From contig JACRDC010000083.1 of NCBI GenBank assembly GCA_016218705.1, positions 54,620 to 118,619 on the forward strand: DNA of 64,000 nucleotides. Direction: 5' to 3'. A program made the translations under genes and the position numbers. Below the pieces are notes generated by a model. It had not been told where the DNA came from. It searched no databases and saw only the letters and a list, made by a program, of their open reading frames with translations. The stretch comes from Desulfarculus sp. (GTDB lineage: Bacteria; Desulfobacterota; Desulfarculia; Desulfarculales; Desulfarculaceae). Numbering within the stretch: the first letter of the stretch is position 1; every line of letters begins with the position of its first letter. Of this stretch, positions 3,778-63,998 are shown piece by piece.

Positions 3778-3931
3778 GCGGGCCATGGATGGCCCGCCGG
3801 GCGCGCCAGCGCCCGGGAGGCCTGGCAAAACCACGGGGTCCCCACAAAACGAAGTTTTGTGGGGTGTAACCACGCTTTTACCAGGCCGATAGGCCATCAA
3901 AGCCATGGATGGCTTTGATGGCCTCCTGGTA
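3778..3931. repeat. mosaic hairpin repeat, copy A
   Basis: Successive hairpins GCGGGCC-atggat-GGCCCGC (3778-3797), CCGGGCGC-gcca-GCGCCCGG, CCCCACAAAAC-gaa-GTTTTGTGGGG (3840-3864), AGGCCATCAAAGCC-atggat-GGCTTTGATGGCCT (3891-3924) inside TACCAGG/CCTGGTA. Confidence 0.8.
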
Positions 3932-10960: not shown

Positions 10961-11080
10961 GCTGATATGCAATCAAAGCCGTCCATGGCTTTGATTGCAT
11001 ATCAGCCGGGCAAAACCCGGGGTCCCCAAGCAAACGCAGTTTGCTTGGGGTGGTTCTTGGCCCGCATACCAATTTGCCCC
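10961..11080. repeat. mosaic hairpin repeat, copy B
   Basis: Perfect 20-bp stem GCTGATATGCAATCAAAGCC-gtccat-GGCTTTGATTGCATATCAGC (10961-11006), then CCCCAAGCAAAC-gca-GTTTGCTTGGGG (11024-11050). Confidence 0.85.
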
Positions 11081-19026: not shown

Positions 19027-19064
19027 CCTGCTTTGGCTAGCGGGCTGTTGAATGCAGCCTGCTT

Positions 19065-19185
19065 GCGGGCCATCCAAGGCCCGCCCAAAAGCGCGTGCCC
19101 TCTTGCGCCAAGCTTTTGGGGAGAGTTAGCCGATTCCATTTCGGCTAACTCGAGTTGAAAAAGGCCATGGGTGGACTTTTTCAAC
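19065..19185. repeat. mosaic hairpin repeat, copy E
   Basis: Four consecutive hairpins: GCGGGCC-atccaa-GGCCCGC; CCCAAAAGC...GCTTTTGGG; GAGTTAGCCGA-ttccatt-TCGGCTAACTC; GTTGAAAAAGGCC-atgggt-GGACTTTTTCAAC. Confidence 0.78.
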
Positions 19186-19191
19186 CTCCTG

Positions 19192-19959
19192 CTAATGCCC
19201 GGCCCGCTGGTCGCGGCGGCCCAAGGTCCGCATCCCCGCGGCCACCACCAAGTGCAGAAACTCGATTACCATCAGCACCAGCAGCACCAGGCCGGCGACG
19301 GTCAGGACGCGGGGGATGAAGTTCTCCCAGTTCCAGGGCCGCCCGGAGAAGACGCCCTCCTCCTCGAACAGCCAGTTCAGGGGCCGAAAGCCGCTGGTGG
19401 CCGCGCGCGGCGAGCGGGTGTCCATCTTGAGCAGGCCTTGCTGCACCGAGCGCTCCTGGACGATGTAGGCGCGCTGCTGGGGCTGCCGCTCCCGCTGCGT
19501 CTGCTCCTCGAACCACTGCTGGTCACTTACCCGCGACTCCTTGGGCAGATAACGCCTCTCCTGCACCTTGGGCCGCTTGCTCATGCGGTCGGCCTCGGCG
19601 CTGTAGACGATGTAGAACTGGGCCGCGATAAGGGGGATGCCCAGGCCGGGGCTGGCCTGGAATATTTGCCAGGCGTCCCAGTTTTCGGTGGCGATCATCT
19701 CGTCAATGAGCAGGAGGGGATCCTCGTGGACCTGGCGCAGGTATTCCAGGGAGGACGTATCGCTGGGCTCGAAGCCGTCGCTGAGCGAGCCGCCCCGGTG
19801 CAGGGTGGTCTGCGCCTCAATCTCGCGGCCAGGGAAGTGCACGCCCGCGGCCCAGGCCGGCGGAGCGCACAGGCTTAGGCACAGGCACATGATGGCCACT
19901 GCGCCCATCAGGCCCCTGGCGCCGGGGCCGGGGCCGGTCTGGTAACCCCAGCATTTCAT
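19192..19959 (-). CDS. hypothetical secreted/membrane protein (signal peptide, C-terminal TM)
   Basis: Hydrophobic N-terminus ending AWAAG; C-terminal VLTVAGLVLLVLMVIEFLHLVVAAG. Confidence 0.6.
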   Translation of the reverse strand: MKCWGYQTGPGPGARGLMGAVAIMCLCLSLCAPPAWAAGVHFPGREIEAQTTLHRGGSLSDGFEPSDTSSLEYLRQVHEDPLLLIDEMIATENWDAWQIFQASPGLGIPLIAAQFYIVYSAEADRMSKRPKVQERRYLPKESRVSDQQWFEEQTQRERQPQQRAYIVQERSVQQGLLKMDTRSPRAATSGFRPLNWLFEEEGVFSGRPWNWENFIPRVLTVAGLVLLVLMVIEFLHLVVAAGMRTLGRRDQRAGH

Positions 19960-54776: not shown

Positions 54777-55553
54777 CTAGAACATGATGGCCGTGAGCAC
54801 GTAGTCAAAGGCCAGGATCAAGACGCTGGCCAGCACCACGGCCTGGGTGGTGGCCCGGCCCACGCCCTCGGCGCCGCCGTGGGTGTAGAAGCCCTTGTAG
54901 CAGCCCACCAACGACAGTATCAGGCCGAAGTAGGCGGCCTTGATAAGGCCCATGGTGATGTCGGAGACCTCCACGTACTCGATGATCTTGGCCATGAAGA
55001 TGCCGGCGTTGATGCCCAACAGGTGCACGCCCACGATGTAGCCGCCCACGATGCCGATGTAGTCGGCCACTATGGTCAGAATGGGCAGCATGATGATGGC
55101 GGCCACTATGCGCGGCAGCACCAGGTACTGCACCGGGTTGACGGCCATGACGTAGAGGGCGTCCACCTGCTCGGTGACGCGCATGGTGCCCAGTTCGGCG
55201 GCCATGGCGCTGCCGGCCCGGCCGGTGACCATGAGCGCGGTGAGCACCGGCCCCAGCTCGCGGGTGAGCGCCAGGGCCACGGTGGAGCCCACCAGGCTCT
55301 CGGCGCCGAAGAGCACGAAGCCGTGATGGCTCTGCAAGGCAAACACGCCGCCGGTGAAAGCGCCGGTGAGGATCACCACGTTGATGGACTTGATGCCCAC
55401 GAACTCCATCTGCTTGAAGATCAGGCGCAGGCGCCAGGGCGGCCTGAGGAGCCACAGCCCGGCCTGCACCAGGAGCAGGAGTATCTCGCCGGCCTCCTCC
55501 AGGCCGCGCAGAAAGCTCCTGCCCAGCGATTCCATGGGGCCTATCCAGCGCAT
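54777..55553 (-). CDS. mlaE: MlaE-type ABC transporter permease
   Basis: ELGPVLTALMVTGRAGSAMAAELGTMRVTEQVDAL signature. Confidence 0.94.
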   Translation of the reverse strand: MRWIGPMESLGRSFLRGLEEAGEILLLLVQAGLWLLRPPWRLRLIFKQMEFVGIKSINVVILTGAFTGGVFALQSHHGFVLFGAESLVGSTVALALTRELGPVLTALMVTGRAGSAMAAELGTMRVTEQVDALYVMAVNPVQYLVLPRIVAAIIMLPILTIVADYIGIVGGYIVGVHLLGINAGIFMAKIIEYVEVSDITMGLIKAAYFGLILSLVGCYKGFYTHGGAEGVGRATTQAVVLASVLILAFDYVLTAIMF

Positions 55554-55750
55554 GCCGGCTCCCTGAAGGTTGTCGCCGCTTGGCCCCAATGGCCGGGGCA
55601 CACAAAGGTCCGCCCCGGTGGCAAGCGCCGGGGCCAAAGGCTTATCCCACTATAGTGAGCGCCGGGCAAGGCGTCAACAACCTGTGATTTTTGGTTCATC
55701 AGGCCCTGGCGGTTGACGGGGCGGACGGCGGTTGCTAGGGTTAGGCATGC

Positions 55751-55880
55751 CTGGGGGTGCCCCAACGGGATGCTGAAAAAGTCCGTCCATGGACTTTTCA
55801 ACTCGTGGCTGAGAGCTCCGCGATAGATGCGCGGGGCGACCCCTAGAACCTGATCCGGGTAATGCCGGCGAAGGGAACGG
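55751..55880 (+). promoter_or_regulatory. TPP riboswitch (THI element) with extended P3 arm
   Basis: GGGGGTGCC ... GGCTGAGAG ... CGACCCCTAGAACCTGATCCGGGTAATGCCGGCGAAGGGAA; upstream of thiD-thiC. Confidence 0.93.
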
Positions 55881-55983
55881 CTGGTGTCCATCGGCCCCAC
55901 GCGGTCCTTGACCACCGGCCGTCCGCGCCGTCAACCGGCCGGACGGCCTTGGTCTTTGGGGGCCGGGGCCAGGAGTGGGCGCG

Positions 55984-56832
55984 ATGGCCGTGGCGCGGGT
56001 GATGGTCCTGGCCGGCTCCGACTCGGGCGGCGGGGCGGGCTTGCAGGCCGACCTGTTGACCGTGGCGGCCCTGGGCGGGCACGCCTGCACGGTGGTCACG
56101 GCGCTCACCGCCCAGGACACCCAGGCCGTGCGCGGCGTCTGGCCGGTGCCCACCGAGTTCGTGGCCGCCCAGTTCCAGGCGGTGCGGGATGACATCGGCC
56201 TGGACGCGGCCAAGACCGGCATGCTGCCCAGCGCGGCCCACGTGGAACTGGCCGCCGTCCTCCTGGCCCCCCTGGCCGTGCCCGTGGTGGTGGACCCGGT
56301 ATTGCGGGCCAGCGCCGGCCAGAGCCTGATGGAGCCGGAGGCCCTGGAGGCCCTCAAGGCGCGCCTGTTGCCCCTGGCCAGCCTGGTCACCCCCAATCTG
56401 GCCGAGGCCGAGGCCCTGACCGGGCTTACCGTGCGCGGCCCGGCGGCCATGGCCCAGGCGGCCCGCGCCCTGGTGGAGATGGGGGCCAAGGCGGCCCTGG
56501 TCAAGGGCGGCCACCTGGAGGGCCAGCCAATGGACGTGCTCTTCGACGGCTGGCGGGAGTGGCGCTTCAGCGCCCCGCGCCTGGCCTGCCCTCACGACCA
56601 CGGCACCGGCTGCACCCTGGCCTCGGCCGTGGCCACCTTGCTGGCCCAAGGCTGGGAGCTTACCAAGGCGGTGGAGCGTGCGCGGCTGTTGGTGCGGCGG
56701 GCCATCGCCGCCGGCCTGCCCCTGGGACGGGGCCGGGGACCCGTGCGCCCCCTGGCCGACCTGGAGTGCCGCCTGGCGGGCGGCCAAGCCGAAGAAAGCC
56801 CCGTGGGGCCGCCGGCTTGTCCGGTTACTTGA
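55984..56832 (+). CDS. thiD: hydroxymethylpyrimidine (phosphate) kinase
   Basis: VMVLAGSDSGGGAGLQADL, TALTAQDTQAV, KGGHLEG, DHGTGCTLASAVA. Confidence 0.95.
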   Translation: MAVARVMVLAGSDSGGGAGLQADLLTVAALGGHACTVVTALTAQDTQAVRGVWPVPTEFVAAQFQAVRDDIGLDAAKTGMLPSAAHVELAAVLLAPLAVPVVVDPVLRASAGQSLMEPEALEALKARLLPLASLVTPNLAEAEALTGLTVRGPAAMAQAARALVEMGAKAALVKGGHLEGQPMDVLFDGWREWRFSAPRLACPHDHGTGCTLASAVATLLAQGWELTKAVERARLLVRRAIAAGLPLGRGRGPVRPLADLECRLAGGQAEESPVGPPACPVT

Positions 56833-56947: not shown

Positions 56948-58246
56948 ATGGCAACCCAAATTGAATTGGCCCGCCAGGGGCGAATCACCCCGGCCATGGC
57001 CCAGGTGGCCCAGGACGAGGGCCTTGAGTTGGAGGTCCTGCGCTCACGGGTGGCCGCCGGCCTGGTGGCCATACCCGCCAACCCCGGCCATGAGGGCCTC
57101 AAGCCCTGCGGCGTGGGCCAGGGGCTAAGGGTCAAGGTCAACGCCAACCTGGGCTCCAGCCCCGACCGCTGCGACCCCGCCGAGGAGGCGGCCAAGTTAA
57201 AGGCAGCGCTTGAAGCCGGGGCCGACGCGGTGATGGACCTCTCCACCGGCGGCGACCTCAAGGCCCTGCGCCGCCAGGTGCTGGACAATTGCACCGTCGC
57301 CGTGGGCACGGTGCCCATCTACCAGGCGGCGGTCAACGCCGCGGCCCAGGACCGGGGCGTGGTGGACCTCACGGCCGACGATATTTTCTCGGTCATCGAG
57401 GAGCAGGCCCGGGAGGGCGTGGACTTCATGACCGTGCACTGCGGCGTGACCCGTCACGCCCTGGAGCGGCTCAGGACCGAGGGGCGCGTCACCGACATCG
57501 TCAGCCGGGGTGGCGCCTTTTTAGCCTGCTGGATCATCGCCAACCAGGCCGAGAACCCCCTCTACGAGCAGTTCGACCGTTTACTTGAAATAGCCCGCGC
57601 CCACGACGTTACCCTGAGCCTGGGCGATGGCTTGCGCCCGGGGTGCCTGGCCGACGCCACCGACCGCGCCCAGATCAGCGAGCTCATCACCCTGGGCGAG
57701 CTGACCCAGCGGGCCTGGGACGCCGGGGTGCAGGTGATGATCGAGGGGCCGGGGCACGTGCCCCTGGACCAAGTGCAGGCCAACATCCAGTTGCAGAAGC
57801 GCCTGTGCCACAACGCGCCCTTCTACGTGCTGGGGCCCCTGGTCACCGACGTGGCCGCCGGCCACGACCACGTGGCCTGCGCCATCGGCGGGGCCTTGGC
57901 CGGCTGGGCCGGGGCGGACTTTTTGTGCTACGTCACCCCCAGCGAGCACCTGGCCCTGCCCGGCCCGGACGAGGTCTACGAGGGCGTGGTGGTCACGCGC
58001 ATCGCCGCCCACGCCGCCGACATCGCCCGGGGCCGGCCCGCCTCCATCGCCCGCGACCGGGCCATGGCCGACGCCCGCCGGCGCATGGACTGGGAGGCCA
58101 TGTTCAGCCTGTGCCTGGACCCCCAGACCGCCCGCGCCATCCGCCAGAAGACCCCACCGGCGGAGTCCGAGGTCTGCACCATGTGCGGCAAGTTCTGCGC
58201 CATGCGCCTGATCCGCGACTACTTCCACCCCGGAGGGCGCAAGTAG
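56948..58246 (+). CDS. thiC: phosphomethylpyrimidine synthase
   Basis: DLSTGGDL, IEGPGHVPLDQ, C-terminal CTMCGKFCAM cluster motif. Confidence 0.98.
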   Translation: MATQIELARQGRITPAMAQVAQDEGLELEVLRSRVAAGLVAIPANPGHEGLKPCGVGQGLRVKVNANLGSSPDRCDPAEEAAKLKAALEAGADAVMDLSTGGDLKALRRQVLDNCTVAVGTVPIYQAAVNAAAQDRGVVDLTADDIFSVIEEQAREGVDFMTVHCGVTRHALERLRTEGRVTDIVSRGGAFLACWIIANQAENPLYEQFDRLLEIARAHDVTLSLGDGLRPGCLADATDRAQISELITLGELTQRAWDAGVQVMIEGPGHVPLDQVQANIQLQKRLCHNAPFYVLGPLVTDVAAGHDHVACAIGGALAGWAGADFLCYVTPSEHLALPGPDEVYEGVVVTRIAAHAADIARGRPASIARDRAMADARRRMDWEAMFSLCLDPQTARAIRQKTPPAESEVCTMCGKFCAMRLIRDYFHPGGRK

Positions 58247-63841: not shown

Positions 63842-63998
63842 TACCAAGTTGCGATCAACCGAGTAGTTTGATCGCAACTTGGTATGCGGGCCATGGATCC
63901 ACCCCAAGCAAACTGCGTTTGCTTGGGGACCCCGGGGAATGGCCCGCCGGGCGCGAAAGCGCCCGGGAGGCCGGGCAAAACCACGTTTTTGCCCGGCC
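63842..63998. repeat. mosaic hairpin repeat, copy C
   Basis: TACCAAGTTGCGATCAA/TTGATCGCAACTTGGTA (17 bp), CCCCAAGCAAAC-tgc-GTTTGCTTGGGG (inverted copy of B), CCGGGCGC-gaaa-GCGCCCGG, GGCCGGGCAAAA/TTTTGCCCGGCC. Confidence 0.85.

Follow-up and report, generated by a model that had tools for sequence, protein, structure and literature searches.

The P3 arm of the TPP riboswitch upstream of thiD-thiC in Desulfarculus sp. carries a lineage-specific insertion of a repeat-derived hairpin, found in a 64,000-nt stretch of contig JACRDC010000083.1 that is referred to as the window hereafter. The reading that best accounts for the observations as a whole, to which I assign a probability of about 0.85, is that a MITE-like fragment inserted into the P3 loop and that the switch is probably still functional. 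A fragment of ~42 nt, made up of a terminal inverted repeat and the first hairpin of the parent element, would have settled in a P3 apical loop of ~6 nt on the lineage leading to this Desulfarculus sp., once it had diverged from the closest congener sequenced. TPP riboswitches with a variable P3 and MITE-like repeats are both known kinds of element; what is new is their combination, for which empty and filled sites are both available.

The riboswitch and its P3 arm

The riboswitch lies between a divergent mlaE-type permease gene and thiD-thiC (Table 1). As expected of RF00059, the match to the model is complete, all conserved segments are present and the element stands upstream of thiD-thiC; it differs from its relatives in a P3 that is prolonged by the repeat-derived hairpin. 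The thiD start may be located further in, and the profile scan was taken from 55993. Downstream of the aptamer, a terminator-like candidate expression platform is conserved in the two congeners G001 and G005, and a consensus scan made no call at this position. The genome (G000) has a second TPP riboswitch with a short, ordinary P3 (L021, G000:C41:3602-3710), which is located upstream of a putative Thi4-like FAD-dependent gene, as read from the sequence.

Within P3, the flanks GGGGGTGCC and GGCTGAGA enclose CCAACGGGATGCTGAAAAAGTCC-GTCCAT-GGACTTTTCAACTCGT, and the whole segment reads GCC-CCA-ACGGG-AT-GCTGAAAAAGTCC-GTCCAT-GGACTTTTCAA-CTCGT-GGC. The initial annotation had described these flanking segments and the hairpin accurately, and alignment to the Rfam model assigns the extra nucleotides to the P3 loop. 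It had also proposed that GCC/GGC and ACGGG/CTCGT can pair around the repeat; both pairings are used by the minimum-energy fold, in which the hairpin is paired as well and P2 and P3a are in place. Compared with the congeners, the net length of the insert is +38/39 nt, with exact ends that are uncertain by a few bases.

Table 1. Positions of the riboswitch, its insert, the neighbouring genes and a full-length repeat copy in the window.
Feature	Position	Strand	Basis or remark
mlaE-type permease, divergent upstream neighbour, orthology anchor	54777..55637	-	TIGR00056; synteny in relatives
TPP riboswitch aptamer (RF00059), thiD-thiC operon	55743..55894	+	cmscan 61.5 bits, gathering threshold 54.3; model positions 1-105, full-length
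P3 proximal strand GCC	55759..55761	+	paired with GGC 55807-55809
Repeat-derived insert, P3 apical loop	55764..55806	+	alignment with five congeners; R1 match 55766-55807, E = 8e-15
ACGGG, repeat-derived P3 extension stem	55765..55769	+	paired with CTCGT 55802-55806, mean pair probability 0.60
Hairpin TGAAAAAGTCC-GTCCAT-GGACTTTTCA, first hairpin (hp1) of the repeat	55774..55800	+	3' arm one T shorter than in most copies
Aptamer P3a hairpin, position unchanged	55815..55837	+	Rfam match and fold
Candidate expression platform, terminator-like: GGCCGTCC..GGACGGCC stem, then TTGGTCTTT	55917..55948	+	conserved in G001 and G005
thiD (HMP/HMP-P kinase)	55975..56832	+	TIGR00097, 280 bits
thiC (phosphomethylpyrimidine synthase)	56948..58246	+	PRK13352 and TIGR00190 above cut-off
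Full-length (~158 nt) repeat copy; copy E is its hp1 part, 19149-19191	19038..19195	-	R1 match and copy alignment

The insert belongs to a genomic repeat family

A covariance model (R1) was built from six other genomic copies of the hairpin, leaving out the riboswitch copy to avoid circularity. When searched against the whole genome, R1 matched the riboswitch insert with 55.1 bits and E = 8e-15, and found eight full-length matches at E <= 8e-15 (the E-values are rough owing to a short calibration, with a large margin), among them the insert and copy E on the minus strand, so that the likeness to copy E pointed out in the initial annotation is real. Copy numbers given here are from model and pattern searches. 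With up to two mismatches, the 12-mer TTGAAAAAGTCC had eight matches in the window versus 0.94 expected, and exact 10-mer matches across the genome revealed further occurrences of the hairpin, most of them followed by a second hairpin (GAGTTAGCCGAAAT..ATTCGGCTAACTC). R1 matches were present in 10 of the 64 genomes of the class, and G001 and G005 have strong copies too.

The resemblance could in principle be one between palindromes with A/T runs, if P3 had been extended locally by replication slippage or template switching that made a palindrome. P3 length does vary among TPP riboswitches, especially in eukaryotes (PMC6414600, PMC11683625), and the stem of the insert is one T short. However, the loop GTCCAT and flanking bases that are unpaired (GGGATG, CTCG) are all part of the 42-nt match, whose E-value comes from a model that excluded the insert, and the tip motif CCRTCCATGG is itself a genome-wide repeat signature, with 224 occurrences in 4.2 Mb versus 8 for the reversed control. 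A local origin is thus highly improbable. The insert is a member of the hairpin family, as the initial annotation had it, with the refinement that it comprises only the left (5') end and the first hairpin of an element of ~158 nt; no right-end sequence is left in P3.

In copies aligned from three genomes, this parent element consists of inverted-repeat ends and a series of conserved hairpins, and the terminal inverted repeats of full copies read TTARCAGG...CCTGYTAA (TTARCAGG..TGTTGAAAAA). For the structure specified, 92.9% of cells were standard pairs and nine pairs were changed on both sides. The covariation score of 0.099 was higher than that of any of 500 shuffles (mean 0.063) or any slid version, which is supportive and short of proof, because related sequences can beat such shuffles without structure. 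Rfam scans of the composite repeats in the window gave no match at the gathering threshold, and when the thresholds were relaxed for two of these repeats, the matches (TD-2, RsmW and others) were all sub-threshold and were treated as chance.

In its size, inverted-repeat ends, stable hairpins and dispersal, the element resembles bacterial MITEs such as Chunjie of Geobacter uraniireducens and QMITE2 of Coxiella, which likewise have truncated derivatives resembling REPs (PMC10969869); the element here had no related sequence in a plasmid collection searched with its full length, and is MITE-like by its ends, size, hairpins and dispersal. It shares with RAYT-associated REP palindromes the small palindromes and the many copies, but the unit is a multi-hairpin element rather than a single REP, and the aligned hp1 copies do not have a GTAG tag at the hairpin base. 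A RAYT transposase was considered as the mover and rejected: the 99%-complete draft genome contains no intact RAYT (Y1) transposase, and its sole PF01797 match is a broken, degraded IS200-like remnant with an internal stop (L033, around 2440-2680, G000:C126). No intact transposase able to move the element was identified.

Empty sites in relatives

The order mlaE-TPP-thiD is conserved in all five congeners, and mlaE-thiD synteny is firm in six of the seven other genomes of the family, the mlaE match being weak in G020. The comparison of P3 with relatives, which the initial annotation had suggested as a check, gave a GGGGTG-to-CTGAGA length of 22-23 nt in the congeners, 23 nt in G007 and 29 nt in G020, i.e., 22-29 nt in seven family genomes versus 61 nt in the window, and the insert is absent from the orthologous site in all seven. 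The closest relative, G001, shares 93% (thiD) and 94% (mlaE) amino acid identity and has a P3 segment of 22 nt; it carries many repeat copies elsewhere and none in the riboswitch, and G005 is likewise repeat-rich with a riboswitch that is free of the repeat. The initial annotation had named a P3 sequence shared by vertical descent, together with the lack of a genomic repeat family, as the outcome that would speak against its reading; relatives turned out to have a P3 without the insert, and the repeat family exists.

Across the class, 79 TPP matches were found in 53 of 64 genomes, of which only three others were at least 130 nt long, and R1 overlapped none of the 78 other listed TPP elements. 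One of the long elements is the thiD riboswitch from a different genus of the family (L126, G007:C268:300001-300163), with a P3a arm enlarged by ~65 nt; it was considered as a parallel case and rejected, given that the expansion is in P3a and not in P3. The other two, L128 (G061:C19) and L129 (G024:C66), are 144 and 130 nt long. A collection-wide scan for similar hairpins inside TPP-like cores was likewise discarded: its 42 matches are about the number estimated for chance, few of them were true TPP elements by eye (e.g., L084 and L087), and none had the hairpin of the repeat. In a survey of the phylum only the best 150 matches were taken, so no rate can be derived from it.

Whether the fragment would have arrived directly or as the leftover of a larger insertion bears on the route within the preferred explanation. 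Under the latter, the full ~158-nt element would have entered the P3 loop and its inner and right parts would later have been deleted, leaving the first hairpin, with selection retaining a deletion by which a P3-like stem was re-formed. Copies with internal deletions are common in the family: a copy in this genome (L040) has hp1 joined to hp4, with a complete orthologous copy in G001 (L080), and the G001 copy at the orthologous site of copy E is internally deleted, with ~100 nt missing from the middle. Given such deletions in other copies, the fragment may have inserted as it stands or may be what deletion left of a larger insertion, and the missing right-end sequence in P3 also fits the latter. 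On the other hand, it needs two events, no relative with an intermediate was found, and the right edge of the insert at CTCG coincides with a module border, as in L040, so that I place this sub-route at somewhat below even odds. A target-site check at copy E met a G001 site occupied by the deleted copy and a G005 site that is too diverged.

Predicted consequences for the switch

The fragment is palindromic and its outer bases can pair (CGGG/CTCG), and for this reason it would prolong P3 without competing with P2, P3a or the P4/P5 arm; with P3 prolonged and no competing folds, the TPP-binding core and the switch would probably remain functional. This agrees with published work, according to which the distal portion of P3 is dispensable for ligand binding and the L5-P3 contact (PMC6414600) and fungal P3 arms are ~150 nt long on average (PMC11683625), long variable arms being described mainly in fungi and plants.

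Ligand-free folding with the insert gave mean pair probabilities of 0.92 for P2, 0.34 for P3 and 0.76 for P3a, and folding with the insert excised gave 0.93, 0.34 and 0.47. Among 300 versions with shuffled inserts, P3 averaged 0.03 and none had both P2 and P3 above 0.9. P4/P5 was poorly populated in the ligand-free state with and without the insert, and since it was low in every version, folding says little on the ligand-bound state. With the insert left aside, aptamer identity to G001 is 95.7%, versus 86.6% for the upstream DNA, and the four substitutions in the aptamer (55745, 55752, 55816 and 55859) are all outside the conserved binding core.

It is conceivable that the insert inactivated the riboswitch and that thiD-thiC is now constitutive or off. 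An insertion of 40 nt in an aptamer could do damage, as illustrated by the random inserts that break P3 in folding, and the Rfam score is lower here (61.5 bits) than in G001 (68.5 bits). Nevertheless, the insert is a hairpin with which P2, P3 and P3a are predicted to be kept, and conservation is higher in the aptamer than in the DNA upstream of it, with substitutions that lie outside the binding core, which makes loss of function unlikely. The initial annotation's view that the repeat can extend P3 without breaking the ligand core holds at the level of an intact core sequence, a score above gathering and a predicted folding that retains P2, P3 and P3a. The insert is most likely tolerated by the riboswitch, and regulation by TPP has probably been retained, judging from sequence conservation and modelled folds.

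An adaptive role would go further: a long, fast-forming P3 hairpin may alter the kinetics of co-transcriptional folding or RNA stability and thereby retune thiamine regulation. The assembled genome contains the insert, and the predicted rise in P3a pairing upon insertion points in this direction, but this is a single case and a neutral insertion accounts for all observations, and I consider adaptation improbable.

Hairpin tips as possible sites of insertion

In the first ~30 loci inspected, the CCRTCCATGG tip sits on different stems (TTGAAAAAGT, GCAATCAAAG, CCGGAGAAAG and GGCGGG), with a minority of loci showing no stem. In the window, such tips occur at 3887-3928, 10961-11006 and 55774-55800, among others, and paired tips are often ~81-97 nt apart, which implies a large composite repeat superfamily. 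Another hairpin, CCCCAAGCAAACGCAGTTTGCTTGGGG, and its variants occupy the tips of host hairpins of two kinds, GGCGGGCC..GGCCCGC and GGCCGGGCAAAA..TTTTGCCCGGCC. A module of this nested type, GGGGTCCCCAAGCAAACGCAGTTTGCTTGGGGTGG with its variants, lies in the tip of two different host hairpins and is present in the window at 3836-3868, 11018-11055 and 63896-63947, and at L052, L062, L161, L168 and L170.

Hairpins within hairpin tips are thus recurrent in this genome, and the tip of P3 is therefore less surprising as a site. Hairpin tips may even be actively targeted. A broader version of this idea would be that the lineage hosts a superfamily whose palindromic modules expand or insert preferentially at hairpin tips and can thereby colonise structured RNAs, with the P3 loop as one case that yielded a working chimeric aptamer; this is tentative, and rather doubtful at present.

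Discussion

Searches of an open-access library turned up neither a published report of a riboswitch aptamer that contains a repeat nor any description of this order's very abundant family of hairpin repeats. In a review of such repeats (PMC10969869), riboswitches are discussed as structures that repeats could form, not as aptamers with a repeat inside them. Compared by description, there is an analogy with the Rickettsia palindromic elements (RPE), palindromic repeats that are inserted within functional genes and tolerated (PMC10969869); their hosts in that review are protein-coding genes, whereas the host here is an RNA aptamer.

Accounts of variable riboswitch arms usually record differences in length with no known source. 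Here the donor family, the empty site and the filled site are all visible, so that the entry of a repeat into an aptamer arm can be assigned to a lineage and is directly testable. Desulfarculus sp. and G001 form a natural pair with and without the insert, which would reveal whether 40 extra nucleotides in P3 alter TPP affinity, folding speed or gene control. The finding also points to a family of hairpin repeats that is very abundant in this order of bacteria, and is a case from nature in which mobile-type DNA has been incorporated into an RNA that probably still works.
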